A stretch of 64,000 bases of DNA, from positions 1 through 64,000 of the forward strand of contig NZ_JAKVIL010000006.1 in assembly GCF_022601675.1 (NCBI RefSeq), given 5' to 3'. The notes beneath the pieces were generated by a model that worked only from the letters and a program-made list of their open reading frames with translations, ran no database searches and was not told where the DNA came from. The stretch is from Ancylobacter gelatini (lineage in GTDB: Bacteria > Pseudomonadota > Alphaproteobacteria > Rhizobiales > Xanthobacteraceae). Each line of letters begins with the position of its first letter. The stretch's first letter is position 1. Both the position numbers and the translations under genes were made by a program. Below are positions 4,183 through 20,994 of this stretch, one piece after another.

Positions 4183-6237
4183 ATGTCCTCCAAATCCAAT
4201 GCTCCCGAAGCCGGCCGCCCGCAGGGGCTGCTCGATCCGGCGATTCTCGTGCCGGCGTGTCGCTCGGCCTTCGCCAAGCTCGATCCGCGCCAGCTCATGC
4301 GTAATCCGGTGATTTTCGTCACCGAGGTGGTGGCGGCGCTCGTCACCCTGTTCTTCCTGCGCGACCTCGCAAGCGGCGGCGATGCCGGCTTTTCCGGCCA
4401 GATCACCGCGTGGCTGTGGTTCACCGTGCTGTTTGCCACCTTCGCCGAAGCCGTGGCCGAAGGGCGGGGCAAGGCGCAGGCGGAAAGCCTGAAGCGTACC
4501 CGCTCCGAACTCTCCGCCCGCCGGCTGCTGGAGGGCGGCGCGCGCAGCGAAACCGTGCCCGCCACCGCGCTCAAGCTCGGCGATCTCGTGCTGGTCGAGG
4601 CCGGCGAGCTGATCCCGGGCGATGGCGAGGTGGTCGAGGGCGTCGCCTCGGTGAACGAGAGCGCCATCACCGGCGAATCCGCGCCCGTCATCCGCGAATC
4701 CGGCGGCGACCGCTCGGCGGTGACCGGGGGGACGCAGGTGCTGTCCGACCGGCTGAAGATCCGCATCACCGTGGCGCCCGGCTCCAGCTTCGTCGACCGC
4801 ATGATCGCGCTGATCGAGGGCGCCAAGCGGCAGAAGACCCCGAACGAGATCGCGCTGTCGATCCTGCTGTCCGGCCTCACGCTGATCTTCCTGATCGCTG
4901 TGGTGACGCTGTGGGGGCTGGCTGGCTATTCCGGCACCGTGCTGTCGGTCACCGTGCTGGCCGCGCTGCTGGTGACGCTGATCCCGACCACCATCGGCGG
5001 TCTGCTCTCGGCCATCGGCATTGCCGGCATGGACCGGCTGGTGCGCTTCAACGTCATCGCCACCTCCGGCCGTGCTGTTGAGGCGGCGGGCGATGTCGAC
5101 ACGCTGCTGCTCGACAAGACCGGCACCATCACCTTCGGCAACCGCATGGCGACCGATTTCATTCCCGTCCCGGGCGTGGCGGCGCTCGACCTCGCGCAGG
5201 CGGCGCTGCTGGCGAGCCTCGCCGACGAGACGCCGGAAGGCCGCTCCATCGCCGCGCTGGCGACCGGCGAGTTCGGCGCGTCGGCGCAGGGTTTCACTAC
5301 GGAGTCCATCGTGCCCTTCGCCGCCGAAACCCGGCTCTCCGGCGTCGATGGCGGCGGGCGGCGGCTGCGCAAGGGCGCGGTGGACGCGGTGCTGCGCTTC
5401 ACCGGCCTCGGCCCACAGGACGCGCCGGCTGAGTTCCGGCAGGCGGTGGACCGCATCGCCCGCACCGGCGGCACGCCGCTCGCGGTGGCGGACGGCGGCA
5501 GGCTGGTGGGCGTCATCCATCTTAAGGACGTGGTGAAGCCCGGCATCAAGGACCGCTTCGCCCGCATGCGCGCCATGGGCATTCGCACCGTGATGGTGAC
5601 CGGCGACAACCCGGTGACGGCGGCGGCGATCGCCTCGGAGGCCGGCGTGGACGATTTCCTCGCCCAGGCGACGCCGGAGGACAAGCTCGCCTATATCCGC
5701 CGCGAGCAGGAAGGCGGCCGGCTGATCGCCATGTGCGGCGACGGCACCAATGACGCGCCGGCTTTGGCGCAGGCCGATGTCGGCGTGGCCATGCAGACCG
5801 GCACCCAGGCCGCGCGGGAAGCCGCGAACATGGTCGACCTCGATTCCTCGCCGACCAAGCTCATCGAGATCGTCGAGATCGGCAAGCAATTGCTGATGAC
5901 GCGCGGCTCGCTCACCACCTTCTCCATCGCCAACGATGTCGCGAAGTATTTCGCGATCATCCCGGCGCTGTTCGTGGCGACCTATCCGGCGCTCGACGCG
6001 CTGAATGTGATGGGGCTCGCCTCGCCGCAATCGGCGATCCTCTCGGCGGTGATCTTCAACGCGCTGATCATCGTCGCGCTGATCCCGCTCGCGCTGAAGG
6101 GCATTGCCTATCGCCCGGTCGGCGCCAGCGCGCTGCTGCGCCGCAACCTGCTGGTCTACGGGCTCGGCGGCCTCGTCCTGCCGTTTGCCGGCATCAAGCT
6201 CATCGACCTCGCCGTCTCGGCGCTTCATCTGGTGTGA
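4183..6237 (+). CDS. kdpB: Potassium-transporting P-type ATPase subunit KdpB
   Basis: 684 residues, normal length. It is the catalytic P-type ATPase subunit that hydrolyses ATP to drive potassium uptake. The actuator loop TGES is at about residues 165-168, the phosphorylation motif DKTGT at about 310, and the hinge [16 protein letters not shown] at about 520. Seven membrane helices are expected, with two pairs before the large cytoplasmic domain. Its stop is two bases before the kdpC ATG, implying translational coupling. Confidence 0.98.
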
Positions 6238-6239
6238 TC

Positions 6240-6809
6240 ATGCTTAAAGCTCTCCGCCCCGCCCTTGTACTCACGCTGTTGATGACGGTGCTGACCGGGC
6301 TCGCCTATCCGCTCGCCATCACCGGCATCGCCGATGCCATGGCGCGTGACAAGGCGCGCGGCAGCCTCATCACCCGCGAGGGCACGGTGATCGGCTCCAG
6401 CCTCATCGGCCAGAACTTCGCCTCGGAGCGCTATTTCTGGCCGCGCCCCTCGGCGACCGGACCGGACCCCTATAATGCCGGCGCCTCCAGCGGCTCCAAT
6501 CTCGGCCCGACCTCGGCGAAGCTGCGCGACCGGGTGGCCGCCGATGTCGAGCGGCTGCGCGGGGCGGGGCTCGCCGGCACGGTGCCGGCCGACGCCGCGA
6601 CCACCTCGGCCTCGGGGCTCGATCCGCACATCTCGCCGGATTATGCCCGCGCGCAGGTGGCCCGCATCGCCCATGCCCGCAGCCTGTCCGAAGCGGATGT
6701 CGCCGCGCTGGTGGAGCGCCTCGCGGAAGGCCGGCATCTCGGCTTCATCGGCGAGCCGCGCGTTAACGTGCTAGAGCTGAATCTCGCACTGGATGCGCTG
6801 AAGGGCTGA
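6240..6809 (+). CDS. kdpC: Potassium-transporting ATPase subunit KdpC
   Basis: 190 residues from the ATG at 6240; a GTG two codons earlier overlaps the end of kdpB and is a possible alternative. One N-terminal transmembrane helix (about residues 8-28) is followed by a periplasmic domain with the conserved [11 protein letters not shown] and GLDPHISP motifs of KdpC. KdpC assembles with KdpA and KdpB in the inner membrane. It is seven bases ahead of kdpD. Confidence 0.96.
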
Positions 6810-6816
6810 ACCGGGC

Positions 6817-9510
6817 ATGGCGTCGAGCGCCGATCGACACGATAACCGGCCGGACCCGGACGCCCTGCTCGCCGCTGCGCGGCAGGATGGGCGCGGCCGG
6901 CTGACCATCTTCCTCGGCGCCGCGCCGGGGGTCGGCAAGACCTACGCGATGCTGACGCGGGCGCGCAAGCTGAAGGCAGACGGCATCGACATCGTGGTCG
7001 GCCTCGCCGAAACCCATGGCCGCGGGGAGACGGCGCAGCTTCTCGACGGGCTGGAGGTGCTGCCGCGGGCGCGGCTTGAGCATCGCGGCCGGAGCGTCGA
7101 GGGCTTCGATCTCGACGGCGCGCTCGCCCGCCGCCCGCGCCTCATGATCGTCGACGAACTCGCCTCATCCAACCCGGACGGAGCGCGCCATCCCAAGCGC
7201 TACCAGGACATCGAGGAACTGCTGGAGGCGGGGATCGATGTCTGGACGGCGTTGAACGTCCAGCATCTGGAGAGCCTGTCCGATGTCGTGGCCGACATCA
7301 CCGGCGTGAAGGTGCGCGAGCGCATTCCCGACACGGTGCTGCGCAAGGCCGATCAGGTCATCCTCGTCGATCTGCCCCCGGCCGAGCTGATCGAGCGGCT
7401 GAAGGACGGCCGGATCTATCTCGCCGATACCATCCAGCGTGCCTATGAGCGTTATTTCCGCCTCGGCAATCTCACCGCCCTGCGCGAACTCGCCTTGCGC
7501 CGCACCGCCGACCGTGTCGACGACGACATGGTGGACTACCTCAAGCGCCACGCGATCGAGGGGCCATGGGCGAGTGCCGAACGGCTGATCGTGTGCGTCG
7601 GGCCGGATGCGCTGTCGGAAAAGGTGGTGCGCACCGCGAGCCGGCTCGCCTCCGGCCTCAACGCGCCATGGATCGTGGTGTCGCTGGAGCGTGCCGAGCG
7701 CGAGGTCGACGATGCCGCGCAGGCGCGGGTGGACAGCTGGCTTCGCCTCGCCGAGAGCCTCGGGGCGGAAACCCGGCGCATCATCGCCAGCGATTTTGTC
7801 ACGGAGCTGATCCGCCTCGCCCGCCGCGAGCATGCCACGCAGATCGTGCTCGGCGCCCATCCACGTCCGCGCTGGGCGAGCTGGCTCGGTACCTCGCTCG
7901 CCGACGAGGTGGCGGCGAGCGCCTCGGGGCTTGGCGTTCATCTGGTGACCGGGGAGGGCGCGGAACCGGTCCCCCGGCCGCGCCGGATGTCGATCGGGCT
8001 CGCCGAGCGGGCGCGCGCGGGTGCGGTGGCCTTCGCCAGCGTGCTGGCGGCGACGCTGATCGGCACCGGCATCGACCGGGTGATCCCGGTGCCGAACGTC
8101 TCGCTGCTGTTCCTGATGGCGGTGATGGTCGCTGCGATCCGGGCGGGCTATGGCGCGGCGCTGCTGGCGGCGCTGCTATCGGGCCTGGCCTATAATTTCT
8201 TTTTCATCGAGCCGCTCTACACCTTCACCATCGCCGCGCCGCACGAGGTGTTCGCCTTCATCGTGTTTCTCCTCGCCGCGCTGGTCGCGGGCGGGCTGGC
8301 CTCGCGGGTGCGCGAGCAGGCGCGAACCGCGCGGGCGCGCGCCGTGGCGGTGCAGTCGCTTTATGATTTCGCCGGCAAGCTCTCCGGCACGGCCAAGCCC
8401 GATGATGTGCTCTGGGTCGCGGTCGCCCAGCTTCACACCAGCTTCGGCCACCCTGCCGTGGCGCTGATGCCGCGCGAGGGAGAACTCTCGCTCGCCGCTG
8501 CCTGGCCGCCCGATGCCGAGCTGGGCGTCGCCGACATGACCGCCGCGCGCTGGGCCTTCGAGCATGGCGAGCCGGCCGGGCAGGACACCGGAACGCTGCC
8601 TTCCAGCCCCTATCAGTTCCGCCCGCTGATCAGCCCGCACGGCGCGCTCGGCGTCTATGGGCTGCGCTGGGGCGGGGACCCGATCGATGGCGTCTCCGAG
8701 CGCATGCTGCTGGCGGTGATGGACCAGACCGCCATCGCCATCGACCGCGCGCGGCTGGCCGAGGAGGCGATCGCGCAGGGCGCGCGGCTGCAGGGCGAGA
8801 ATTTGCGCGCGGCGCTGCTGTCCTCGATCTCGCACGATCTGCGCACGCCGCTGTCCACCATCACGGGCGCGGTCACCAGCCTGCGCCAACTCGGCGACCG
8901 AATGAGCGCGGCGAGCCGCGACGACCTCCTGCTGACCATCGAGGAGGAGAGCGCGCGGCTGTCGCGCTTCGTCGCCAACCTGCTCGACATGACGCGCATC
9001 GAGGCCGGCACGCTCGATGCGCGCTCGGACTGGATCGATGTCGGCGACGCCATCCGTGCGTCCCAGGAGCGCTGCGCCCGCTATTTCCCCCGGCTCGGCA
9101 TCGTCACCCGCATCGATCCCGGCCTGCCGCTGCTGCGCGGCGACGGCGTGCTGCTCGGGCAGGTGCTTTTCAACCTGCTGGACAACGCCGCCAAATATGG
9201 CGGGGGCCAGCCGGTCGAGCTCTATGCACGGGTCGAGGGGCGTGATCTTGTCATCACCGTCACCGATGCCGGGCCGGGCATCCCGCCGGAAGACCTCGGC
9301 GCGGTATTCGAGAAGTTCTTCCGGCGCGGCAATCCCGACGGCCGCCCGCCCGGCACCGGGCTCGGCCTGTCGATCGCGAAAGGGTTCGTCGAAGCCATGG
9401 GCGGCACCATCACGGCGGAGAGCCCGGCGCAACCGAACCGGGGTGCGTCGCCCGGCACCCGGATGGTGCTGCGGTTTCCAGTGCCCGAGGGCGGGTCGAT
9501 CGCGTCATGA
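6817..9510 (+). CDS. kdpD: Osmosensitive potassium sensor histidine kinase KdpD
   Basis: 897 residues (E. coli 894) with full domain order: N-terminal KdpD domain with Walker A GAAPGVGKT (34-42), a Usp-like region (about 250-365), four membrane helices (about 395-500), a GAF-like region (about 520-640), the phosphoacceptor in SISHDLRTPLS (His673), and a C-terminal ATPase domain with NLLDNAAKYG and GTGLGLSIAKG. It senses potassium limitation and phosphorylates KdpE. Its end overlaps kdpE by four bases (ATGA). Confidence 0.97.
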   Translation: MASSADRHDNRPDPDALLAAARQDGRGRLTIFLGAAPGVGKTYAMLTRARKLKADGIDIVVGLAETHGRGETAQLLDGLEVLPRARLEHRGRSVEGFDLDGALARRPRLMIVDELASSNPDGARHPKRYQDIEELLEAGIDVWTALNVQHLESLSDVVADITGVKVRERIPDTVLRKADQVILVDLPPAELIERLKDGRIYLADTIQRAYERYFRLGNLTALRELALRRTADRVDDDMVDYLKRHAIEGPWASAERLIVCVGPDALSEKVVRTASRLASGLNAPWIVVSLERAEREVDDAAQARVDSWLRLAESLGAETRRIIASDFVTELIRLARREHATQIVLGAHPRPRWASWLGTSLADEVAASASGLGVHLVTGEGAEPVPRPRRMSIGLAERARAGAVAFASVLAATLIGTGIDRVIPVPNVSLLFLMAVMVAAIRAGYGAALLAALLSGLAYNFFFIEPLYTFTIAAPHEVFAFIVFLLAALVAGGLASRVREQARTARARAVAVQSLYDFAGKLSGTAKPDDVLWVAVAQLHTSFGHPAVALMPREGELSLAAAWPPDAELGVADMTAARWAFEHGEPAGQDTGTLPSSPYQFRPLISPHGALGVYGLRWGGDPIDGVSERMLLAVMDQTAIAIDRARLAEEAIAQGARLQGENLRAALLSSISHDLRTPLSTITGAVTSLRQLGDRMSAASRDDLLLTIEEESARLSRFVANLLDMTRIEAGTLDARSDWIDVGDAIRASQERCARYFPRLGIVTRIDPGLPLLRGDGVLLGQVLFNLLDNAAKYGGGQPVELYARVEGRDLVITVTDAGPGIPPEDLGAVFEKFFRRGNPDGRPPGTGLGLSIAKGFVEAMGGTITAESPAQPNRGASPGTRMVLRFPVPEGGSIAS

Positions 9511-10196
9511 ACGGCAACCGGATTCTCGTGGTGGACGACGAGCCGCAGATCCAGCGCTTCCTGCGCCCGGCCCTGTCGGCGGCGGGCTATGACGTGTTCG
9601 AGGCGGCGACCGGGGCCGAGGCGCTCAAGGCCGCCGCCACCACGGCGCCGGACCTCATCCTGCTCGATCTCGGCCTGCCGGACATGGACGGCAAGGAGGT
9701 GATCGCCCGGCTGCGCGGCTGGTCGCATGTGCCGATCATCATCCTGTCCGCGCGGGATCGCGAGGCCGAGAAGATCGCCGCGCTCGATCTCGGGGCGGAC
9801 GATTATGTTGAAAAGCCGTTCGGCATCGGCGAGCTCACCGCCCGCATCCGCACCGCGCTGCGCCACAAGAAGGGCGTCGAGGTCGAGGCCGAGCGCTACG
9901 CGGTCGACGGGCTCGATATCGACATGGTGCGCCGGCTGGTGACGCGCGGCGGCGAGCCTGTGAAGCTGACGCCCAAGGAATACGACCTCCTGACCCTTCT
10001 GGCCCGCCATGCCGGCCGCGTGGTGACGCACCGCACGCTGCTGACCTCGGTCTGGGGCCCCGCCCATGGCGAGGACCTGCATTACCTGCGCGTGTTCATC
10101 GGCCAGCTCCGCCAGAAGATTGAGCGCGATCCCGCCAATCCCGCGATCATCCGCACCGAGCCGGGCGTGGGCTATCGTTTCGCGGAGGCGGCCTGA
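9507..10196 (+). CDS. kdpE: Response regulator KdpE
   Basis: 229 residues: receiver domain (1-118) with phosphoacceptor Asp54 in LLDLGLPDMDG, acidic pocket DDE (10-12) and the conserved Lys in YVEKPF, then an OmpR-type winged helix (about 130-227). It is the partner of KdpD and the expected activator of this kdp operon. The four-base overlap with kdpD indicates coupled translation. I could not identify its binding site upstream of 2258. Confidence 0.96.
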   Translation: MNGNRILVVDDEPQIQRFLRPALSAAGYDVFEAATGAEALKAAATTAPDLILLDLGLPDMDGKEVIARLRGWSHVPIIILSARDREAEKIAALDLGADDYVEKPFGIGELTARIRTALRHKKGVEVEAERYAVDGLDIDMVRRLVTRGGEPVKLTPKEYDLLTLLARHAGRVVTHRTLLTSVWGPAHGEDLHYLRVFIGQLRQKIERDPANPAIIRTEPGVGYRFAEAA

Positions 10197-10371
10197 GCGG
10201 GCCACTCGCGCCGGTGGGTTTCGCGCTTCTGGCGGTTGCCGGCAAATCCCGAAGCATTCATAGTCGCTTGAAGAGGGCGGGCGCGGGCGGCCGCGCGTCG
10301 GCAGGGGCGAACGAGAATGGCATCGGCAAATCTTCCCCGTGGCGGGTTCGCGCGGGGGCGCGTGGCGACTC

Positions 10372-12078
10372 ATGGCGCGTAAACCTTCCAACATCATCTA
10401 CAGCGCGCCCGAGCGTCCGCCGCTGTTGACGCTGATCATCCTCGCATTCCAGCATGCCGTGCTGGCGCTGCTGTTCGTGGTCTATCCCATCGTCGCCGCC
10501 GCGGAGGCCGGGTTGTCCTTCGAGGACACGCAGGTGCTGATTACCGGCTGCGTCATCTTCATGGGCATCACCACCATGCTGGTGTGCTGGCCGCGCACCG
10601 GTTCCGGCGTACTGCTGGTGCAGCTTCCGAACCCGATGCATCTGCCGCTGGCGGTCCAGTCCCTCGGCCTCGGGGGCCCGGCGGCCTATGCCGGTACCAG
10701 CGTGCTCACCGCCTTCAGCCAGCTCGCGCTGACCCGTTTCATGGGCGCGCTGCGCTCGGTGTTTCCGCCGGAAGTCTGCGGCGTGGCCGTGACCATGATG
10801 GGCGTTGCGCTGGCCGCACCGGCCTTCCGCCGCGCCTTCAATCTCATCGAGGAGAGCGGCGGCGCGATCGACTACCGCTACCCGCTGGTAAGCTTCGTCA
10901 CCCTGGCGGTGATTGTCGCCCTCGCCATCTTCTCGCGGGGCATGCTGCGCCTGTTCGCGGTGGCGATCGGGGCGAGCCTGGGCTGGGGGCTGGCGGTGTA
11001 TTACGGCCTCACCCCCGACCACCCGGAATTCGACATCGCCGCGCTGCCGCTGGTCGATCTGCCGAATCTGCGCTGGCCGGGGCTGACCTTTTCCTGGGTC
11101 GCTGTGCCGGTCGCCATCATCACCGCCGTCGTCTCCGCCATCGACATGCTCGGCACCGTGGTCTCGATGCAGCGCATGGACGATGCCGACTGGCGGCGCG
11201 TCGACATGAACACGGCGGGCCGCGCCATCCGCGCCAACAGCATCGGCGATCTCGGTGCGGCGCTGGTGGGCGGCTTTGCCAGCGCCTCGTCCTCCGCCTC
11301 GATCGGCGTCGCCTTCGCCACCGGCACCACGGCGTGGCGGGTCGGCATCGCGGCGGGGATCATGGTGCTGGCTTCGGCGTTCTCGCCCCGGCTGATCGCG
11401 CTGCTGAGCGTCATTCCCTCCTCGGTGATCGGCGCGATCCTGCTGTATGCCGCCGCCTTCCTGATCGTCGCCGGCATGGACCTGATCCTGTCGCGGCGCA
11501 TGAGCGACCGGCGCATCTTCACGGTCGGCCTTTCCGTGCTGGCGGGCCTTGCGGTTGCGGTGCTGCCCGAACTGGTGGACGCGCTGCCGGACTGGATGCA
11601 TCCGATCTTCGAATCCCCGCTCTCGGTGGCGACGGGCTTTGCCATCGGCCTGAACCTGCTGTTCCGCATCGGCATCCGCCAGGAAGCGAGCGTGCCGGTG
11701 AAGCGGGACGACAACGCCTTCGAGACCGCGACCGATTTTCTGGAGCGGCAGGGCGACCTCTGGGGCGCGCGGCGCGACGTGGTGGCCACCGCCATTCCGC
11801 TCGCCGCCGAGGCCGCCGAGATGCTGCTCGACAACGACCTCGCCACCGGCGACGTCGAGATGCGGGCGCATTTCGACGAGATGAATTTCGACGTTTCGCT
11901 GCTCTATACCGGCGAGCCGATCGAGGTGCCGAGCCTGCGCCCCTCGCCGGAGGCTCTGCTGGGCGATGCCCATGAGGTGGCGCGCTTCGTCGGCTACATG
12001 CTGAGCAAGCGTGCGGACCGCCTGGTGCTCGGCCGCGAAGGCGAGCGCCAGGTGCTCACCCTGCGCATGGAGCATTGA
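10372..12078 (+). CDS. NCS2-type membrane protein with degenerate signature and C-terminal GHKL-like domain
   Basis: 568 residues from the ATG at 10372. Residues 20-432 form an NCS2 (nucleobase-ascorbate/xanthine/uracil permease) core: QH in the first helix (27-28), SAIDMLG (255-261) and GGFASASSSASIGV (300-313). The family signature [Q/E/P]-N-x-G-x4-T is here A309-S310-I-G-x4-T317, so the two substrate-site residues are lost. Residues 435-568 are an added cytoplasmic domain resembling the RsbW/SpoIIAB ATPase fold. It has AAEAAEMLLDND near the N box and a REGERQVLTLRM end that aligns by eye with REGGRNVVTLHF in the kinase encoded 0.5 kb downstream, but it lacks the DxG nucleotide motif. The next genes encode a STAS protein and that kinase. 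A sensor role is inferred; a working purine permease remains possible. Confidence 0.8.
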   Translation: MARKPSNIIYSAPERPPLLTLIILAFQHAVLALLFVVYPIVAAAEAGLSFEDTQVLITGCVIFMGITTMLVCWPRTGSGVLLVQLPNPMHLPLAVQSLGLGGPAAYAGTSVLTAFSQLALTRFMGALRSVFPPEVCGVAVTMMGVALAAPAFRRAFNLIEESGGAIDYRYPLVSFVTLAVIVALAIFSRGMLRLFAVAIGASLGWGLAVYYGLTPDHPEFDIAALPLVDLPNLRWPGLTFSWVAVPVAIITAVVSAIDMLGTVVSMQRMDDADWRRVDMNTAGRAIRANSIGDLGAALVGGFASASSSASIGVAFATGTTAWRVGIAAGIMVLASAFSPRLIALLSVIPSSVIGAILLYAAAFLIVAGMDLILSRRMSDRRIFTVGLSVLAGLAVAVLPELVDALPDWMHPIFESPLSVATGFAIGLNLLFRIGIRQEASVPVKRDDNAFETATDFLERQGDLWGARRDVVATAIPLAAEAAEMLLDNDLATGDVEMRAHFDEMNFDVSLLYTGEPIEVPSLRPSPEALLGDAHEVARFVGYMLSKRADRLVLGREGERQVLTLRMEH

Positions 12079-12237
12079 GGGCATGCGGCCGGCGCCTTCG
12101 CGGGAGCGGTTCCCGCGCTTGCGTGTCCGCGGCTTTCTCGGGTAATTCTGGCGCTCACGTCCGGGCCCGTTCCGCACAGGTCCCGGGCGTCAACGGGCGC
12201 GGTACGCGCGTTTCGGCGCAGATGGTTCGGAGTTTCG

Positions 12238-12570
12238 ATGCAGATAGACCGTTCCATTGAGAATGCCGTCATGATCACGACGGTGAAGGGCCGGCTGGAC
12301 AGCTCCAGCGCCCAGCGGCTCGATGAGGTTCTGGCGGTGATCCCGGAGGGTAGCAATGGCGTCCTCCTCGATTTCGCCGAGCTGGTGTTCATTTCGTCGG
12401 CGGGTCTGCGGGTGGTGCTGAAGGCGGCGAAGCTCGCGCGTGGCGCCAGCATTCCGCTGGCCGTGTGCAGCCTTAGCCCACAGGTGCACGAGGTGTTCGA
12501 GGTGAGCGGTTTCTCCGCCCTCATCCCCATCCACCAGAGCCGCGAAACCGCGCTGGTGGCGTTGACCTAG
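12238..12570 (+). CDS. STAS-domain anti-sigma factor antagonist (RsbV/SpoIIAA-like)
   Basis: 110 residues, a single STAS domain. The phosphorylation loop reads VFISSAGLRVVL (50-61); Ser54 aligns with the serine phosphorylated in SpoIIAA/RsbV, with Ser53 in place of the usual Asp before it. In partner switching the unphosphorylated form binds an anti-sigma kinase and releases its target. The gene begins 159 bases after the NCS2-type gene and 35 bases before an RsbW-like kinase gene, and a PP2C phosphatase lies 5 kb away, so the three roles of a partner switch are present. The target sigma factor is not in the window. Confidence 0.9.
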   Translation: MQIDRSIENAVMITTVKGRLDSSSAQRLDEVLAVIPEGSNGVLLDFAELVFISSAGLRVVLKAAKLARGASIPLAVCSLSPQVHEVFEVSGFSALIPIHQSRETALVALT

Positions 12571-12605
12571 CCGCGCGCCGTCAGGGCGATGTCGAGGGCG
12601 GAGAC

Positions 12606-13043
12606 ATGATCGACAACGGGATCGACATCCGCCTCGTCAACGACCTCTCGGAAATGGACCGTCTCGGCGCCGCGCTGGACGCCTATGCCGATGCGGCCGA
12701 TCTGCCGGCGCGGGTCGCCTTCAATGTCAGCCTCGCCGTCGACGAGTTCGTGAGCAACGCGATCAACCATGGCTATGCCGACGGTCGGCGTGGCGAGATC
12801 GCGGTGAAGGTCGCGCGCGAGGACGGAAGGCTGACGCTGGTGATCTGCGACGACGGCGATGCCTTCGATCCCTTCACCGCCCCTCCACCGGACCTTGACG
12901 CCTCGATCGAGGACCGCCGCATCGGCGGGCTCGGCGTGCATCTGGTACGCCGCTTCGCCGACGGCTCCGCCTATGCGCGCGAGGGCGGGCGCAACGTGGT
13001 GACGCTGCATTTCGACCTGCAAGGCGCGGATACCCCCCACTAA
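12606..13043 (+). CDS. RsbW-like serine kinase / anti-sigma factor
   Basis: 145 residues forming one GHKL ATPase domain. The N box is DEFVSNAINHG (46-56, Glu47 and Asn51), the G1 region is CDDGDAFDP (81-89), and the G2 region is IGGLGVHLVRRFAD (106-119). It has the size and layout of RsbW/SpoIIAB anti-sigma kinases, which phosphorylate their STAS antagonist. Its partner is presumably the STAS protein encoded just upstream. Unlike the C-terminal tail of the neighbouring NCS2 protein it keeps the ATP motifs, so it is likely active. Its 3' end faces that of the Na/Pi gene at 13056. Confidence 0.9.
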   Translation: MIDNGIDIRLVNDLSEMDRLGAALDAYADAADLPARVAFNVSLAVDEFVSNAINHGYADGRRGEIAVKVAREDGRLTLVICDDGDAFDPFTAPPPDLDASIEDRRIGGLGVHLVRRFADGSAYAREGGRNVVTLHFDLQGADTPH

Positions 13044-13055
13044 GGGGAGGTCCGG

Positions 13056-14660
13056 TCAGTCGGTGGCGGTGGCGCGGCGGGCCTGGCTGAGGTCGTTCAC
13101 CAGTCGCCGCGCCAGCCAGACGATGCGCTCGAACAGCACCGTCATGCGGAACAGTGCGTTCTGGGCCTCGGCGCCGACATCCTCCTGCGACGACAGGCGC
13201 AGCCGCAGATCCTCCATCAGCTTGTCGCGGTGGCCGAGCAGGCTGAGAACCATCTCGGGATCGTCCGCCGCCGGGTCCTCGGCGTGGTCGGCCACGGTGC
13301 CGAGCAAGGCGTGCAGCGCCTCGACCAGCCGTCCGGCGGCGGGCATCGCGCGCGCATCGGCATGGGCATCGGCAAGTTCCGCCAGCGCCTCATGCAGCGC
13401 GCTGGCATTGGCGGCGGCGTCTTCCAGCAACAGGGCGGTGGCGACCTGAGGGCGGGTCGGCTGGTTATCGAGCAGCGAGGCGAGATAGGCGCGGATCGCC
13501 CCCGCCAGCGTCACGCCGGCGGTGCGCAGCACGGCGGGGGAGGGGGCGGAAAGGTCCGGCTCGTCGCGTATATGGTCCAGCATCTGCGGCAGCCGCGCGC
13601 TGAGCCGGCCGAGCTCGTGCAAAGTCAGGTCGAGCGCGGCGGCCGGGTCGTTTAGCGCCTCGCGCATCAGATAGGCGGGTTGCGCCAGCGTCTCGACCGC
13701 GGGAACCGGCATCAGGCGCAGCATCAGTCGCCGCGTCGGCTCCTCGATCAGGCTCGCCCCGGCCGCGCCGACGATCTGCGCCAGCAGGAACAGAATGGCG
13801 AGCTGCCCGTCGGGCGGGCCGCCGGCCCACCCCAGCACGCTGGCGCCCGGTCCCGGATAGAGCGCGGCAAAGATCGCGACGGCGGCGAGGAACAGCGCGC
13901 CGATGCCCTTCTGCACCACCTGCAGCGCGAAGGTCAGGCGGCCGGCGGTGGTCTCGCCGGGGATCAGTACGGCATTGTTGATCATGCCGGCGGCATTGGC
14001 GCCCGCGACCAGAGGCAGGGCGGCCGGCAGGTCGAGCAGCCCGCCGCTCATGGCCGCGACCGCGATGGCCGCCGACACCGACGAGGATTGCGCGATGCAG
14101 GAGAACGCCGCGCCGATTAATGCGAGCACCAGCGGCTGCTCGAGCGCGGCTTCCCACCAGGGCAGGTGCATCAGCCCGTCGCGAATCGGGCCGACGGCGA
14201 GCGCGACCAGATGCATGCCAAACAGCAGCATGGCGGCGCCGAGAGCGGCTTCCATGGCATGCTTGAGGCTCTCGCGCTTCACCAGCTTGAAATAGCTGGC
14301 GAAACCGGCGAGGCCGATGACGATGCCGGCGGCGATCGAGGTGTCGAGGGCCACGATCAGCGGCAGCAGTGCCGTGCCGACATTGGCCCAGACCGGCGCC
14401 AGCAGAACCACGCTGCCGGTAAGGATACCGGCCCGCACGAACGACACCACGATCCAGGAGACCGCCGTCGAGCTCTGGGTCACCGCGCCGGCGATGGTGC
14501 CGCCGATCGCGCAGCTCAGCCGGCCGCGCAGTGCGCGCGCAAAGGCCGCGCGCGCGCGCCGGCCCATGAGCGGCACGAGATTGGCGGAGAGCGCCCGCAC
14601 GCCGATGAAGAACAGGCCGAGCCCGGCGAAGAGCTCGGAAATCGTAGCAAGCGCACTCAA
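13056..14660 (-). CDS. Na/Pi cotransporter family protein with PhoU-like C-terminus
   Basis: 534 residues. Residues 1-310 contain two inverted Na/Pi-cotransporter repeats marked by GAVTQSSTAVSWIVVSF (about 58-74) and CIAQSSSVSAAIAVA (about 187-201); the QSS motifs are the family hallmark. The C-terminal 200 residues are helical and PhoU-like. Such proteins move phosphate with sodium, often outward in bacteria. It lies on the opposite strand between the two halves of a partner-switching signalling set. The 182 bases after its start show only promoter-like DNA. Phosphate specificity is from family knowledge, not sequence proof. Confidence 0.85.
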   Translation of the reverse strand: MSALATISELFAGLGLFFIGVRALSANLVPLMGRRARAAFARALRGRLSCAIGGTIAGAVTQSSTAVSWIVVSFVRAGILTGSVVLLAPVWANVGTALLPLIVALDTSIAAGIVIGLAGFASYFKLVKRESLKHAMEAALGAAMLLFGMHLVALAVGPIRDGLMHLPWWEAALEQPLVLALIGAAFSCIAQSSSVSAAIAVAAMSGGLLDLPAALPLVAGANAAGMINNAVLIPGETTAGRLTFALQVVQKGIGALFLAAVAIFAALYPGPGASVLGWAGGPPDGQLAILFLLAQIVGAAGASLIEEPTRRLMLRLMPVPAVETLAQPAYLMREALNDPAAALDLTLHELGRLSARLPQMLDHIRDEPDLSAPSPAVLRTAGVTLAGAIRAYLASLLDNQPTRPQVATALLLEDAAANASALHEALAELADAHADARAMPAAGRLVEALHALLGTVADHAEDPAADDPEMVLSLLGHRDKLMEDLRLRLSSQEDVGAEAQNALFRMTVLFERIVWLARRLVNDLSQARRATATD

Positions 14661-14842
14661 CGCACAACACCCGATGGGTCAGGAGGACGATCTGGCGGGG
14701 GCCGATCCCATGTCGGCGCGCCGGATCACCCGGGAAGGATTAGCAATCGCTGCGCCAAGCGTGGCAGGCGGCGCCTCCGGTGATGTGCAACTTGCGTATG
14801 ACGATCTGACGACAGACCCGTGAAGGCACCCGCGCGCGCCGA

Positions 14843-15217
14843 CTATTCCGGGAGGCCGAGCTGCGCCCGGATTTTCCCGAGCAGGCGCGGCAGGTCCACC
14901 GGTTTGGTGTCGAAATCATCGCAGCCGGCCGCCAGCGCGTCCTCGCGGTCCTGCGCCATGGCGTGGGCGGTGAGGGCGATCACCGGGATGGCGGTGGTTT
15001 CCGGGTTCGCCTTCAGCCGCCGGGTCGCCTCCCAGCCATCGAGCACCGGCAGGCTCATATCCATGAGAATGAGATCGGGCTTGCCGGCGAGGGCGAGGTC
15101 CACGCCCTCCTGCCCGTTCACCGCGACGGCGACCTCGAAGCCATTGCGCGACAGCCGGCGCGAGAGCATGTCGCGGTTCAGTTCGTTGTCCTCGACCAGC
15201 AGAATGCGGCTCATCAT
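14843..15217 (-). CDS. Single-domain response regulator (CheY/DivK-like)
   Basis: 124 residues, a receiver domain only. It has the acidic pair in VEDNELNRD (8-16), phosphoacceptor Asp53 in MDMSLPVLDG, Thr83 in ALTAH and Lys105 in DTKPVD. The first ATG at 15217 overlaps the TGA of the hybrid kinase gene (ATGA), so it is translationally coupled to it and is probably its output or a phosphate sink. There is no output domain. It resembles DivK-type shuttle regulators; its downstream partner is unknown. Confidence 0.92.
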   Translation of the reverse strand: MMSRILLVEDNELNRDMLSRRLSRNGFEVAVAVNGQEGVDLALAGKPDLILMDMSLPVLDGWEATRRLKANPETTAIPVIALTAHAMAQDREDALAAGCDDFDTKPVDLPRLLGKIRAQLGLPE

Positions 15218-17577
15218 GCCTCCTCCGTAACGATGCGCCCGGTCACGCCGTGCCCGGCGATCGCCGCCAGCGCTGCGCCAAGCGTGCCGATCGGCTGCGC
15301 GCTCTTGCTCAGGATCAGCAGCGTGTTGCGGGCGAGGAAGTTGCGCTCCTCGGCCGTCAGCTCCTTGGCGGTGAGCACCACGATGGGCAGCTCGGTGAAT
15401 TTCGGCATGCCGCGCACCCGCTCCAGGAATTCCATCCCGTCCATCACCGGCATCATCAGATCGAGCAGGATCAGCGCCGGGCGCGGATTGGCCGCGAGCC
15501 ACTCCAGCGCCTCGCGCCCATTGCCGGCCTCCGCGACCTCGATGCCGAGATCCTCGATGGTGGTGCGCACCATGGCGCGCACATCGGCGTCGTCATCGAC
15601 CACGAGAATCGGGGTCTCGCTTGCGGTGGGCGCGAATTTGTGGATGAGCGCCAGCAGCCGCTGCCGGTCGATCGGCTTGGTCATGTATTCGGAGGCGCCG
15701 AGCGAATAGCCGAGGGTGCGGTCGTCGACGATGGTGAGCATGATCACCGGAATATGGTCGAGCGCGGGATCGGACTTCATGATGCCGAGCACCGACCAGC
15801 CGTCGATCTTGGGCATCATCACGTCGAGCGTCACGATGTCCGGCGGCTCGCGGCGCATGATCTCCAGCGCCTCGTGGCCATCATGGGCGTGGATGAGGTG
15901 GTAGCCCTCCTTGCCCAGCGTGGCGGCCAGCACCTCGTGCACCGCCGCGTCGTCATCCACCACCAGAACGGTGATGGCGCCATGGCGCACCTTGTCGAGC
16001 GCGCTCGGCTCCGGCAGGTCCTCGGGCGTGGCGACGGCGCGGCCCGCGACTTCCTGCGGCAGGCGGATGGTGAAGGTCGCGCCTTCGCCGGGGGCGCTGG
16101 CCACCTCGATGGTGCCGCCGAGCATGGCGACGAAATGCTTGGTGATGGTGAGGCCGAGCCCGGTGCCGCCGAAATTGCGCGTGGTCGAGGCGTCGGCCTG
16201 GGTGAAGGCCTGGAACAGCCGGCCCATCTGCTCCTCGCTCATGCCGATGCCGCTGTCGCGGACCGAAAGCCGCACTTCCTCGCCGCCATCCGCGGTGGGA
16301 ATGCGGGCCAGCGCCAGCGTCACCTTTCCTTCCTTGGTGAACTTGGCGGCGTTGCTCAAGAGGTTGATCAGGCTTTGCTTGAGCTTGGTCAGGTCGGTGC
16401 GCACCGAGCCGATGTCGGACGGACACTCGATGACGAGGCTGTTGGCGTTCTTCTTCATCATGGGCGAGACGATGGTCTTCACCTCGTCCACCAGCCGGGT
16501 CAGGAAAACCTGCTCCAGATACACGTCCATGCGGCCTGCCTCGATCTTGGACAGATCGAGAATGTCGTTGATCAGGCCCAAAAGGTGCTTGCCCGCGCCC
16601 TGGATTTTTTCGAGGTCGGCGACGAGGGCGTCGTTGCCGTCGTCGCGCGCGTCCTCCTGCAGGATTTCGCTGTAGCCGATGATGGCATTGAGCGGGGTGC
16701 GCAGCTCGTGGCTCATATTGGCGAGGAAGGCGCTCTTGACCTGGCTGGCGGATTCCGCCGCCTCCTTGGCCTCGCGCAGTTCGTCCTCCATGCGCACGCG
16801 GTCGCTGATATCCGAGACCGTGGCGATGATGGAGGGGTCGTGCATGAAGTCGAGCGCGCCGCCGAACACCATGGTGTAGCAGGTGGAGCCATCCTCCTTG
16901 CGGAACGAGAATTCCTGCGGCCCGTTCGGCAGGCGGCCCATGACGTCGCCGAACTCGCGTCCCTTCTCGGGGTCGTCCAGCAGCCCTTCGATCGACTTGC
17001 CGATGAACTGGGCGGCATCCTTGCGGAACATGCGGGCGAAGCACGGGTTCACATGGCGGATGACGCGGCTCGGCCATGCGACGATGACGAGGCCGACCGG
17101 CGCGGCGCCGTCGATCTGGCGCAGACGCTCTTCCTCATCCTTCAGCCGCTGCTCGGCGCGCTTGCGCTCAGTGATGTCGGTGTAGATCGCGATGAAGCCG
17201 CCGCCGGGGATCGGGTCGCGCCGCACTTCCAGCACCTTGCCGTCCGGGCGGACGCGTTCGAACTGGTGGGAATGGTCCAGTTCCTTGAGTCGCTTCTCCA
17301 GCAGCACCTCGACATCGGCATCGCCGAACTCGCCCCGGCCGTGCAGGTAGCGGATATAGTCGGAAAAGGTGTGCTCAGTGCCGAGAAACTCATCCGGCAT
17401 GTTGAGATATTCGCGGAACAACGCGTTCCATGTCACCAGCCGGTGCTGGTCGTCATACATGGCGACGCCCTGCGCCATGTTCTCCAGCGTGGCGCGAAGC
17501 AGCGCGAGTTCGCGCCCGCTGGCGGCGTCCGGCACCAGGTCCTCGGGCTTCGCCACCCGTCCGATCTCGGTTCCCAT
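15214..17577 (-). CDS. Hybrid sensor histidine kinase: two PAS, HisKA, ATPase, two receivers
   Basis: 787 residues from the ATG at 17577, preceded by a GGGGGA ribosome site. Order: a PAS domain (about 25-137), a second PAS (about 150-262), a dimerisation domain with His290 in ANMSHELRTPLNAIIGY, an ATPase domain with N box LINLLSNAAKF (403-413) and G2 GGTGLGLTITK (470-480), a receiver with Asp585 in LDVMMPKIDGW, and a second receiver with Asp706 in LDLMMPVMDG. The open frame extends further upstream but would run into the phosphatase gene. No membrane helix is seen, so it is cytosolic and may sense through PAS. It is the middle gene of a three-gene operon that starts with a PP2C regulator. Confidence 0.93.
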   Translation of the reverse strand: MGTEIGRVAKPEDLVPDAASGRELALLRATLENMAQGVAMYDDQHRLVTWNALFREYLNMPDEFLGTEHTFSDYIRYLHGRGEFGDADVEVLLEKRLKELDHSHQFERVRPDGKVLEVRRDPIPGGGFIAIYTDITERKRAEQRLKDEEERLRQIDGAAPVGLVIVAWPSRVIRHVNPCFARMFRKDAAQFIGKSIEGLLDDPEKGREFGDVMGRLPNGPQEFSFRKEDGSTCYTMVFGGALDFMHDPSIIATVSDISDRVRMEDELREAKEAAESASQVKSAFLANMSHELRTPLNAIIGYSEILQEDARDDGNDALVADLEKIQGAGKHLLGLINDILDLSKIEAGRMDVYLEQVFLTRLVDEVKTIVSPMMKKNANSLVIECPSDIGSVRTDLTKLKQSLINLLSNAAKFTKEGKVTLALARIPTADGGEEVRLSVRDSGIGMSEEQMGRLFQAFTQADASTTRNFGGTGLGLTITKHFVAMLGGTIEVASAPGEGATFTIRLPQEVAGRAVATPEDLPEPSALDKVRHGAITVLVVDDDAAVHEVLAATLGKEGYHLIHAHDGHEALEIMRREPPDIVTLDVMMPKIDGWSVLGIMKSDPALDHIPVIMLTIVDDRTLGYSLGASEYMTKPIDRQRLLALIHKFAPTASETPILVVDDDADVRAMVRTTIEDLGIEVAEAGNGREALEWLAANPRPALILLDLMMPVMDGMEFLERVRGMPKFTELPIVVLTAKELTAEERNFLARNTLLILSKSAQPIGTLGAALAAIAGHGVTGRIVTEEA

Positions 17578-17615
17578 GTCCAATGTCCCCCTGCGCCGTT
17601 CGGAATGTGCGGGAA

Positions 17616-18791
17616 TTACGCCGGGCCATCCAGAGCCAGCATGAGCGCGGCCATGTCGTCGAAGGCCGGCAGCCCGGCCTCGAAGGTCCGCACCTCGCCG
17701 GCGAGCCGCGGCAGCGTCTCGGCGGAAAGCCCCGGCGTTGCGGCAAGGAAGCGGGCGATCGGCTCCTCGCCATAGAGTTCGCCGGCCGGGTCCTGCGCTT
17801 CGGTGAAGCCGTCGGTGACGGCCAGCAGGCTGTCGCCCGGTTGCAGCTCGATGGAGCCGGCGCGATAGGCGATGCCGTCCGCGACGCCGAGCGGCGGGCC
17901 GCTGAGCACTTCCAGCCGCACCACCTCGCCATCGGCCCGGCGCAGGAAGGGCGGCACATGGCCGGCGCGGACATAGGCCAGGCGGCGCGTGTCCAGGTCG
18001 AGCGTGGCGAGGAAAAGCGTGACGAACATGCAATTGGCATTGCCGACCGCGAGCGCGTCATTAACCAGCGCCACCGCGCGCTCCGGCCGGGCGAACAGTT
18101 CGCCGGCGTCGGGCCGCGCCGCCAGCGCGCGGAACATGGCATGGGTGCGCGCCATGACCAGCGCCGCGCCCGCGCCCTTGTCGGAGACGTCGCCGACCAG
18201 CATGGCGAGCTTGTCGCCGTCCACGGCGAAATAATCCACCAGGTCGCCGCCGACTTCCTTGGCCGGCTCCAGCATGGCCGAAACGCGCAGATGGCTGCCG
18301 CCAAGCGGGGCTCCGAAGCGCGGCGGGGCGAGGGCGAGTTGCAGCGTGCGGGCCTCGGCGAGTTCCACCTGCTTGCGCTTCAGCTCGTCGCGCGTGCGAT
18401 CGCGCAGCGCCTTTTTCTCCAGCGTGGCCAGCACGCGGGCGCGCAGCAAGGTCGGGTTGAACGGCTTGAACAGGAAGTCGTCGGCGCCGAGTTCGACGCA
18501 GCGCACCAGCGGCTCGATGTCGTTCAGCGCCGAGACCACGACCACGGGCAGGTCGTTGATCCGCCCGTCGGCCTTGAGCTGCTCCAGCACGCCGAACCCG
18601 TCCAGCACCGGCATCATGATGTCCAGCAGCACCAGATCGAAGGCGCGCCGGTCGATGGCGGCGAGTGCCTCGACCCCGTTCTCGGCCTCCTCGATCTGGG
18701 TGAAGCCCATGCGCTTGAGGCGGCGGGACAGCAGGTCGCGATTCTCGGCGACATCGTCGACGACGAGAATGGCAGTATGCGTGTCGGCCAT
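17616..18791 (-). CDS. Response regulator with PP2C (SpoIIE/RsbU-type) phosphatase domain
   Basis: 391 residues from the ATG at 18791. A receiver domain (6-125) carries Asp57 in LLDIMMPVLDG and Lys in FKPFNP. A helical linker (about 130-165) leads to a SpoIIE-type PP2C domain (about 175-388) with the metal motifs EVGGDLVDYF and VGDVSDKGAGAALVMA, AGHVPPFL, and the final DDMAALML. Such proteins dephosphorylate STAS antagonists, which releases anti-sigma kinases. The nearest candidate substrate is the STAS protein encoded at 12238. It is the first gene of an operon with the hybrid kinase (38-base gap) and the single-domain regulator. Confidence 0.93.
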   Translation of the reverse strand: MADTHTAILVVDDVAENRDLLSRRLKRMGFTQIEEAENGVEALAAIDRRAFDLVLLDIMMPVLDGFGVLEQLKADGRINDLPVVVVSALNDIEPLVRCVELGADDFLFKPFNPTLLRARVLATLEKKALRDRTRDELKRKQVELAEARTLQLALAPPRFGAPLGGSHLRVSAMLEPAKEVGGDLVDYFAVDGDKLAMLVGDVSDKGAGAALVMARTHAMFRALAARPDAGELFARPERAVALVNDALAVGNANCMFVTLFLATLDLDTRRLAYVRAGHVPPFLRRADGEVVRLEVLSGPPLGVADGIAYRAGSIELQPGDSLLAVTDGFTEAQDPAGELYGEEPIARFLAATPGLSAETLPRLAGEVRTFEAGLPAFDDMAALMLALDGPA

Positions 18792-19006
18792 GGCGGTTCT
18801 TCCGGTGGCGGTGCTGCGGGCGGCGCGGAACGGAAGGATCCCCGCGGCTCGCACCCAGCCAAGTTCATGAGCGCACGGACTTTCTTCGATCCCGGCGGCC
18901 AAGTCCAGCGTGCCGACGGCGGTTCATGGCGAGAAAGCCGCTTTGCCAGCACGCCGTCATTGGCGATGATGGGCGCGCCGGCGTCCCGCCCGGAATCGGT
19001 CTTGCA

Positions 19007-19987
19007 ATGCTCTCACGCTTTCTCCGCCATCCGGTCCTGCTCATCGTCGCGGCGGTGGTGACCCTGTTCGCGCTGTACGAGATCAGCGTCCGCTACTTCG
19101 CCTATACCGGCGACGCCTATGTCGACAGCAATGTCATCGTGGTCGCCTCGCAGATCGCCGGCCCGGTCTCGGAACTGGCGGTACAGGACAATCAGCCGGT
19201 GACAGCGGGACAGGTGCTGTTCCGCATCGACCAGACGCCGTTCGCCCTGAAGGTGAAGGAGCGCGAATCGGCGCTCGACCAGGCGCGGGCCGATCTGGCG
19301 CTGGCTGATGACGAGGTGAGCGCGGCCAAGGCCACCATCGTCTCCGCCCAGGCGGTCGCCACCAATGCCAACGAGACGCTGGCCCGCGTGCGCTCGCTCG
19401 CCAAGGACGGTTTCTCGCCGGAGGCCCAGCTCGACGTGGCGACGCGCGACGTCGCGACCGCCAATGCCGCGGTACAGGTGGCGGAATCCGCGCTCAGCGT
19501 CGCCACCCGCCGCGTCGCGGTGGCCACGGCGGACATCGCCACGGCCGAGGCCTCGCTCGCGACCGCGCAATACGATCTCTCCAAGACCGTGGTGACCGCA
19601 CCCGAACCCGGCCGGGTGACGCCCTTCGTGATCCGGGTCGGCGACTACATGGAACGCGGCACCAAGGTGATGGCCATCGTCACGCCGGAGCGGCGGCGCG
19701 TGGTCGCCAATGTGGCGGAGCGCCATCTCGCGCGTATCGCGCTCGGCCAGCGGGTCTGGCTCACGCTCGGTTCCGACCCGTGGGTGCTTCATGCCGGCCG
19801 CGTCACCGGCATCTCGCCCGGCGTGGCGCGGCAGGAAGGCGAGGTGCAGGTGCTGCCCTATGTCGAGCCGTCCACCGACTGGGTGCGGCTGCCGCGCCGC
19901 TTTCCGGTGGAGGTGACGCTGGATGAATGGCCCGAGGGGCTCGGCCTGTTTCTGGGCGCCGATGCCCGCGTCCTGATCTGGTTCTGA
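19007..19987 (+). CDS. HlyD/EmrA-type membrane fusion protein
   Basis: 326 residues from the ATG at 19007, chosen because the N-terminal membrane helix (about 9-27) follows directly. A biotinyl-lipoyl half-motif (about 50-75), a long Ala-rich coiled coil (about 80-185) and a second lipoyl plus beta-barrel part (190-325) give the standard periplasmic adaptor layout. It probably pairs with the FUSC protein 14 bases downstream, as AaeA pairs with AaeB in aromatic-acid efflux. No outer-membrane factor gene is nearby. Confidence 0.88.
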   Translation: MLSRFLRHPVLLIVAAVVTLFALYEISVRYFAYTGDAYVDSNVIVVASQIAGPVSELAVQDNQPVTAGQVLFRIDQTPFALKVKERESALDQARADLALADDEVSAAKATIVSAQAVATNANETLARVRSLAKDGFSPEAQLDVATRDVATANAAVQVAESALSVATRRVAVATADIATAEASLATAQYDLSKTVVTAPEPGRVTPFVIRVGDYMERGTKVMAIVTPERRRVVANVAERHLARIALGQRVWLTLGSDPWVLHAGRVTGISPGVARQEGEVQVLPYVEPSTDWVRLPRRFPVEVTLDEWPEGLGLFLGADARVLIWF

Positions 19988-20001
19988 GCGCGGCGGCGGC
20001 G

Positions 20002-20994
20002 ATGGATGACATTTCCCGCCAGGCCCTCGCCACCGCCGTCGGCGTGATCGTCGCGGTCTATATCGCGCTGTGGATGGGGCTGGAGCAGCCCTATTGGGCC
20101 GCGCTCAGCGTGATGATCATCTCCAACACCGACCGCGACGCGCTGTTCACCAAGGGCGTGCTGCGCGTGGTCGGAACCATTGTCGGGGTCACCACCGGCT
20201 ATGTCGCCGCGCTGTGGAGCGAGCCACTGCCGCCGGCGCAACTCGTGCTGGTCGCGCTGGCGGCGGGCATCGGCACCTATGGCCGCCAGCGCAGCGCCTA
20301 TGGCTATGCCTGGTTCTATGGCGCGCTGACCTTCATGCTGATGATCGCCTGCGCGATGACCACGCCGGATCAGATCTACTCCTTCGCCTGGTATCGCTGC
20401 TACGAGATCGTCATCGGGGTGACGGTCGCCACGCTGGCGAACTGGGCGATCGGGCCGGGCGAGCCGAGCTTGCCGCATCGCCTCGTCGCCCAGTCCACGG
20501 CCACCACGGCGGAGAGCGCGCTCCGGCAGTCGGCGATCGGCGCCCTGGGCGTCGCGACCATCGTGATCGTGTGGTCGTTGTTCAACCTGCCGCAACTGGT
20601 GCAGGTGCTGATTTCCAGCCTGATCATCATCGACGCCAATCCCGCCGCGTCGCGCCATCGCGGCTGGCAGCGCATTCTGGGCTGCATCATCGGCGGCACC
20701 ACCGCGCTGGCCATCATCTGGATCGACGCGGTGCACATCTGGTGGTGGACCATCAGCATGGGGCTCGGTGTGTTCACCTTCGCCCGGATGCATCTGGGCA
20801 AGACGCCCAATGCCTATATCGGCACCCAGTCGGCGATCGCGCTGCTGGTGACGATGGTGGGCACCGGCCCGCCGGACAGCATCCTGCCGCCGATCGACCG
20901 GCTGATCGGCATCGTGATCGGGGTGAGCATCATGACGGTGCTGATCTGGGCGCTGAACCCCCGACCCGCCGAGCCGGCCAAGGCCTCCGCCTGA
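20002..20994 (+). CDS. FUSC-family inner-membrane exporter (AaeB-like, short form)
   Basis: 330 residues with about eight to ten hydrophobic helices. It contains the FUSC motif EQPYWAALSVMIIS (about 29-42) and a second related half with QVLISSLIIIDANPAASR and a conserved Arg-rich loop. Full AaeB proteins are about 650 residues with a large cytoplasmic domain; this one is about half that size, a form common next to HlyD-type adaptors. The substrate is unknown; aromatic acids are the family precedent. Confidence 0.82.
   Translation: MDDISRQALATAVGVIVAVYIALWMGLEQPYWAALSVMIISNTDRDALFTKGVLRVVGTIVGVTTGYVAALWSEPLPPAQLVLVALAAGIGTYGRQRSAYGYAWFYGALTFMLMIACAMTTPDQIYSFAWYRCYEIVIGVTVATLANWAIGPGEPSLPHRLVAQSTATTAESALRQSAIGALGVATIVIVWSLFNLPQLVQVLISSLIIIDANPAASRHRGWQRILGCIIGGTTALAIIWIDAVHIWWWTISMGLGVFTFARMHLGKTPNAYIGTQSAIALLVTMVGTGPPDSILPPIDRLIGIVIGVSIMTVLIWALNPRPAEPAKASA

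Follow-up and report, generated by a model that had tools for sequence, protein, structure and literature searches.

A partner-switching locus of Ancylobacter gelatini with a candidate membrane-protein output

Partner switching is known from textbooks as a means of controlling sigma factors, and a switch without a sigma factor gene beside it raises the question of what it controls. Such a locus was studied in the window, a stretch of 64,000 nucleotides of Ancylobacter gelatini (contig NZ_JAKVIL010000006.1, positions 1 to 64,000 of the forward strand). Seven genes were found within positions 10372-18791. The plus strand carries the genes for an NCS2/SLC23-like membrane protein with a putative C-terminal pseudo-GHKL domain (10372..12078), a stand-alone STAS protein (12238..12570) and an RsbW-like serine kinase (12606..13043). 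The minus strand carries those for a Na/Pi cotransporter-family protein (13056..14660), a single-domain response regulator (REC, 14843..15217), a hybrid histidine kinase (15214..17577) and a response regulator with a phosphatase domain, REC-SpoIIE/PP2C (17616..18791). Six of these genes had been named in the original prediction, which was made by a model from the sequence alone, and a Pfam scan recovered all six at their positions and strands; the Na/Pi cotransporter gene inside the same interval had been overlooked. With about even confidence, we read the locus as a self-contained partner switch, the output of which would be the membrane protein, docked by STAS, and not a sigma factor.

Tail and membrane domain of the NCS2-like protein

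The NCS2-like protein has 568 amino acids counted from the ATG at 10372 (the same frame is also open from the GTG at 10339) and was matched by PF00860 (E 3e-39). Its tail, residues 439-568 (11686..12075, plus strand), was matched by no Pfam model, even with the threshold relaxed to E 1. The iterated tail profile drifted into RsbW, and separate tail-only and RsbW-only sets were used for the comparison. An hhalign comparison of the tail-only profile, built from 56 sequences, with the RsbW-only profile, built from 21, covered 122 columns and gave a probability of 96.6. Furthermore, when 13,925 frames were searched with the tail-only hidden Markov model, 39 of the 52 RsbW frames scored at E 10 or better, the best of them at 5e-7, and the only other matches beyond tails and RsbW frames were two tail-like frames and two at E 8.5. 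No match was obtained when the PDB sequences were searched with the tail profile. The AlphaFold2 model of the tail had a predicted local distance difference test score (pLDDT) of 96.3 and a predicted template modelling score of 0.89. Foldseek returned ten PDB matches of this model at E<=0.001, all of them SpoIIAB, RsbW, UsfX or sigF/anti-sigma complex entries, with template modelling scores of 0.58-0.68 on the query; which chain of an entry was matched was deduced from its fold. As modelled, the tail has the Bergerat fold of the RsbW/SpoIIAB type. The GHKL-like tail that had been proposed for the NCS2-type protein is therefore real and RsbW-related by profile comparison, AlphaFold2 and Foldseek. 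The assignment of the tail as an ordinary histidine-kinase ATPase domain was rejected, because the ten best PDB matches were anti-sigma kinase entries and histidine kinases appeared from rank 12.

The tail had rightly been called GHKL-type, and the loss of its ATP-binding residues had gone unnoticed. This loss was analyzed in an alignment of 81 rows (tail match below E 1e-8, frames over 450 amino acids), from which most Ancylobacter orthologues and L064, a locus of the same genus, were excluded. The N-box Asn position (484) held Asn in none of the 81 tails, and the N-box Glu position held Glu in 60 and Gln in 21. Asp was likewise found in none of the 81 at the G1 Asp position (512), which was occupied by Tyr, His or Trp throughout. 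Since the N-box Asn and the G1 Asp are missing in every row, the tail is predicted to be a pseudo-kinase domain that should not bind ATP. The local RsbW-like kinase, unlike the tail, retains both an intact N-box (E47, N51) and an intact G1 box (D82-x-G84). The tail also possesses conserved residues of its own, namely W464 (77/81), F501 (75/81), D502 (79/81), E503 (78/81) and G514 (81/81). A one-sequence artefact was rejected, as there were 81 aligned relatives, and 68 without rows at least 90% identical. In addition, a free-standing tail-type protein was observed on a Thiodictyon plasmid (L041:14073-14591; 74 bits, no Pfam match at E 0.01). Its gene lies directly upstream of a STAS gene, with two NCS2-tail genes and a SpoIIE gene nearby.

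The full-length AlphaFold2 model of the NCS2-like protein had a pLDDT of 88.1. In Foldseek, SVCT1, UraA and UapA came first and SLC26 proteins next, and the membrane domain as modelled has the UraA/SLC23 fold. Glu241 and Glu290 of UraA are described as both functionally essential and both in contact with uracil (PMC5539350). In an alignment with UraA, they corresponded to D258 and A309 of the NCS2-like protein. Across the 81 sequences, position 258 held Asp in 58, Lys in 15, Arg in 5, and Asn, Glu and Thr in one each, while position 309 held Ala in 43, Ser in 34, Gly in 2, and Val and Thr in one each, and never Glu. Thus, Glu241 was missing in 80 and Glu290 in all 81 of the aligned relatives. 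Substrate binding in the nucleobase mode of UraA is unlikely, because both glutamates are not kept; this membrane domain may instead bind another substrate or act as a receptor.

The STAS protein (110 amino acids) was matched by PF01740 (E 4e-15) and, over the cut-off, by ant_ant_sig TIGR00377. It carries a FISSAGLR motif with the conserved Ser, and we take S54 in this motif to be the putative phospho-Ser, by motif as in RsbV. An SS motif of this kind was present in 56 of 62 STAS matches, overlapping loci included. The RsbW-like kinase is a HATPase_c_2 protein of 145 amino acids (PF13581, E 5e-27), and the phosphatase was matched by PF07228 (E 2e-43) and PF00072. The Pfam domains of the hybrid kinase are PAS-PAS-HisKA-HATPase-REC-REC, and its gene overlaps that of the single-domain REC protein (PF00072) by 4 bases. 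The Na/Pi cotransporter-family protein was matched by PF02690 (E 5e-27). In the whole genome, the REC-PP2C protein of the locus was the one SpoIIE (PF07228) match, and the locus RsbW was the only match to PF13581 that was strong (95 bits, against less than 30 for the remaining 18). PF01740 had three matches in the genome (PF13466 was not searched genome-wide), two of them in frames of 584-661 amino acids, and the locus STAS protein was the sole shorter one. A separate partner of the PP2C protein elsewhere found no support, as the sole SpoIIE match and the sole PF01740 match outside those long frames are both in this locus.

Conservation in the genus, in distant bacteria and in archaea

Among 24 same-genus genomes, a 68-72% orthologue of the NCS2-like protein was found in 20, in one of which (G021) it was a contig-edge fragment. 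In three genomes all relatives were weaker, the best being a 35-37% form, which G021 carried in addition to its orthologue. The remaining genome, G003, had no NCS2-tail relative at E 1e-10. The NCS2-tail, STAS and RsbW genes stood together in all 19 fetched orthologue loci. The whole gene set, with its order and the Na/Pi gene, was kept in 18 of these 19; the single-domain REC was found in 18/19, and so was the hybrid kinase core with its RECs; the PAS part of this kinase was recognized in 16 of the 18 loci. The one exception was G022, which has its SpoIIE gene on another contig. At four loci that carry the 35-37% form (L061-L064), the genes were rearranged to the order NCS2-tail, HAMP-PP2C, membrane sensor, ABC_sub_bind protein, RsbW and STAS, as annotated with Pfam on L062 only, and the Na/Pi gene was present in two of the four. 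Moreover, among the 25 genus genomes SpoIIE was missing from G003 alone, which is also the sole one without the NCS2-tail protein, and this joint absence may reflect a single loss event. None of the tail-less ordinary NCS2 genes of the genus (nine rows, E 1e-16 to 1e-11) was within 20 kb of SpoIIE in a by-eye comparison.

Relatives beyond the genus were taken from a scan of genome contigs, as the best 80 of 143. After the removal of 17 Ancylobacter-type orthologues (one of them a fragment) and of L145 (the same DNA as L064, of the same genus), 62 loci were left. A partner gene (STAS, PP2C or RsbW) lay within 10 kb or the contig end in 18 of the 62, and at least two partners were present in 17 of these 18. 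The 18 linked loci are not 18 independent events, because L130/L137/L142 and L132/L135/L151 are close kin. They span Deltaproteobacteria, metagenome-assembled genomes (MAGs) of Binatia and Ignavibacteriales, Betaproteobacteria, other alphaproteobacteria and Methanosaeta/Methanothrix. For instance, 5TMR-LYT-PP2C, STAS and NCS2-tail genes stood together both in a deltaproteobacterium (L114) and in Methanosaeta (L119). The Desulfuromusa locus (L130) had a PP2C-RsbW frame, with PP2C cut by the contig end, followed by NCS2-tail, STAS and a Na/H exchanger, and that of Fodinicurvata (L139) had RsbW, STAS, two NCS2-tail genes, a sensor and PP2C. A GAF-rich adenylate/guanylate cyclase was observed just upstream of the switch genes in the deltaproteobacterium (L114:5625-8222). 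The exchanger of Desulfuromusa (L130:3268-5043), which carries TrkA_N and directly follows the other three genes, is another ion transporter beside the switch, like the Na/Pi gene in Ancylobacter. A Na/Pi gene was also found near switch genes at L062, L064, L139 and L150.

SpoIIE was present in 40 of 41 chosen tail-bearing genomes from these records. Around the best SpoIIE, which was considered in 20 of the 28 genomes without a local partner, RsbW and STAS both adjoined in 10 and one of them in 4; a Na/Pi gene was found in 7 of these 20 regions. In an even sample of the class, comprising 144 genomes, the tail was found in 11 and SpoIIE in 56. SpoIIE occurred in 9 of the 11 genomes with the tail compared with 47 of the 133 without it (Fisher p 0.003, with relatedness and genome size not controlled). 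When the A. gelatini genome was left out, SpoIIE was found in 8 of 10 tail-bearing genomes of this sample (p 0.007).

In archaea, the tail was matched in 17 of 392 genomes of the phylum of the Methanosaeta record. PP2C, STAS and/or RsbW lay beside the NCS2-tail gene in 8 of these 17 genomes, two of which, G060 and G072, are L119 and L138 of the relatives set. Three other archaeal genomes had tandem NCS2-tail genes without local partners. In these tandem pairs (L204, L206 and L208), only part of the tail was matched in the second gene.

With regard to the surroundings of the A. gelatini locus, Kdp-type genes lie 5' of it (6234-10196), as judged from reading frames alone. Only L042 had KdpD/KdpE-like matches of 38% and 57% upstream, and at other loci there were none or matches of 27-34%. 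Overlapping genes for a HlyD-family adaptor and a FUSC-family membrane protein (18926-20994) adjoin the PP2C gene and resemble an ordinary efflux pair.

Proposed switch and competing explanations

We infer that binding and phosphotransfer would proceed as follows. The hybrid kinase would set the phosphorylation of REC and thereby the activity of PP2C, which would remove the phosphate from phosphorylated STAS. The unphosphorylated STAS protein would dock on one of two partners: RsbW would phosphorylate it again, whereas the pseudo-GHKL tail could not. Docking on the tail would open, close or assemble the membrane protein, and transport would be changed in this way; the neighbouring Na/Pi cotransporter perhaps acts together with the NCS2-like protein. 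MlaB-MlaF, as described in PMC7367683, is an earlier example of a STAS protein that acts on a transporter. The input modules differ among three lineage types, which have a hybrid kinase with REC-PP2C, HAMP-PP2C with ABC_sub_bind (L062), or 5TMR-LYT-PP2C (L114, L119). Because the inputs vary by lineage while the NCS2-tail protein persists, the NCS2-like protein would be an output rather than mainly a sensor. More tentatively, and somewhat short of even likelihood in our judgement, the locus may belong to a widespread and ancient class of partner switch that controls transport instead of transcription, with free STAS, switched by a PP2C and an RsbW-type kinase, docking on a dead copy of that kinase fused to an SLC23-fold protein.

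The original prediction had described one system with a GHKL-like tail and no sigma factor nearby, and this part agrees with our results. It had also regarded the NCS2-like protein as a ligand sensor, whereas the comparative evidence leans to an output. As a receptor on the input side, the protein would capture STAS with its tail depending on the ligand and compete with RsbW, and the output would be elsewhere. We consider this rather unlikely, although it has points in its favour. The loss of both UraA glutamates is as expected of a transport-dead receptor and could equally well be compatible with one. Furthermore, what such a switch puts out can also be the STAS protein itself, as reported for RbaV (PMC3999984). 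However, a separate input is already present in all three lineage types described above, and PP2C, STAS and NCS2-tail occur without a nearby RsbW match in L114, L119, L132 and L151. In addition, neighbour clustering, a noisy and insensitive test in which shadow frames were included, gave no constant second output gene.

The same four loci bear on an improbable explanation, in which the pseudo-GHKL tail pairs with RsbW and either brings this kinase to the membrane or inhibits it there, STAS acting downstream. In its favour, anti-sigma kinases of the GHKL family dimerize, the closest resemblance of the tail is to RsbW-type kinases, and 11 of the 62 loci outside the genus had an RsbW gene near that of the tail protein. 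Such pairing is at odds with these loci, which have PP2C and STAS by the tail and are RsbW-less nearby although PF13581 was over the cut-off in 11 of 11 genomes checked.

No local sigma factor was found: Sigma70_r2 was matched at 12 places in the genome and at none on the contig of the window. Only one Sigma70_r3 match in the genome was over the cut-off, in a frame of 684 amino acids. As this sole match is of RpoD size, no sigB/sigF-type sigma factor is evident in the genome, and a distant RpoH or extracytoplasmic function (ECF) target would still be compatible with these matches. To our knowledge, no sigma factors are known in archaea. An ordinary RsbU/V/W-type switch acting on a distant RpoH, ECF or RpoD target, with the NCS2-like protein as a co-located transporter and its tail of unrelated use, is likewise quite doubtful. 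It would be in line with the twelve Sigma70_r2 places, with the separation of the tail protein from switch genes (no partner within 10 kb or the contig) in 44 of the 62 loci beyond the genus, and with RbaVWY of Rhodobacter capsulatus, described without a known sigma target (PMC3999984). On the other hand, the tail is itself kin of a switch kinase, the adjacency recurs not only across several phyla of bacteria but also in archaea, and the genome has no region-3 sigma of the sigB/sigF type besides the RpoD-sized frame. Chance co-location in one genome was rejected because the SpoIIE match and the strong PF13581 match are single and because the synteny on which the original prediction depended was found in the genus, in the relatives and in archaea.

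Several findings weigh against a membrane-protein output, in addition to the 44 unlinked relatives and the receptor-like loss of glutamates. Five genus paralogue loci (L065-L069) retain the tail without switch neighbours, with no STAS, RsbW or PP2C match in the 18 kb fetched around them (L036-L038 are shorter pieces of some). In 6 of the 20 unlinked genomes considered above, neither RsbW nor STAS was beside the best SpoIIE. Tail-bearing genomes without SpoIIE exist, namely G136 and G145 in the class sample and G075, a MAG, among the 41 chosen genomes. The SpoIIE phosphatase also serves other systems, since 47 of the 133 tail-less class genomes have it. Finally, the reverse search was weak, as the RsbW-only profile found 11 of 114 tails, with 2 below E 0.001. 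Because this profile reaches few tails, the kinship between tail and RsbW is based on the tail profile, hhalign and the fold. The five paralogues are of an R type, with Arg at the UraA Glu241 position, and four of them are without the conserved tail Trp.

Comparison with known switches and transporters

The locus shares with RsbU-RsbV-RsbW and SpoIIE-SpoIIAA-SpoIIAB a PP2C phosphatase, a STAS protein with the conserved Ser and a HATPase_c_2 kinase in which the N and G1 boxes are intact. It differs from them in having no nearby sigma gene and an extra degenerate RsbW-like domain on a membrane protein. RbaV-RbaW-RbaY of R. capsulatus, likened here by its description, is also a switch of STAS protein, kinase and phosphatase from an alphaproteobacterium, and the search for its sigma target found none; the paper names no such membrane partner, and the words permease and transporter are absent from its text (PMC3999984). 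For the SpoIIAA/SpoIIAB/SpoIIE-like genes of Methanomicrobiales, the target could not be determined by the authors, and excerpts of their paper mention no permease or uracil (PMC2686161). In contrast, the archaeal relatives in our study had an adjoining NCS2-like gene in 8 of 17 genomes. If the proposal is true, these archaeal SpoIIA-like genes could gain their missing target. More generally, some Gram-negative and methanogen switches are without a known target, and a recurrent degenerate kinase copy on a membrane protein would be a concrete candidate.

No described SLC23-kinase fusion was found among the entries listed by a literature search in which subscription journals were thinly covered, and a sigma-free switch with a membrane-protein target may be a variant of partner switching not found described there. 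It would suggest a fast, transcription-independent control of membrane proteins through a Ser-phosphorylation switch. Compared with UraA, UapA and SVCT1 (NCS2, SLC23), the membrane fold is shared, but the glutamates corresponding to UraA Glu241 and Glu290 are not kept and a C-terminal domain is added. The SulP/SLC26 proteins with a C-terminal STAS domain, described in PMC8256260, and MlaB-MlaF (PMC7367683) are examples of a transporter influenced by a STAS domain, as is proposed here. In the present locus, by contrast, STAS is separate and probably switchable, and the transporter-like protein carries a relative of the kinase partner of STAS. If the proposed output is correct, the NCS2-tail protein would mirror SulP/SLC26, in which a related fold bears the fused STAS domain.

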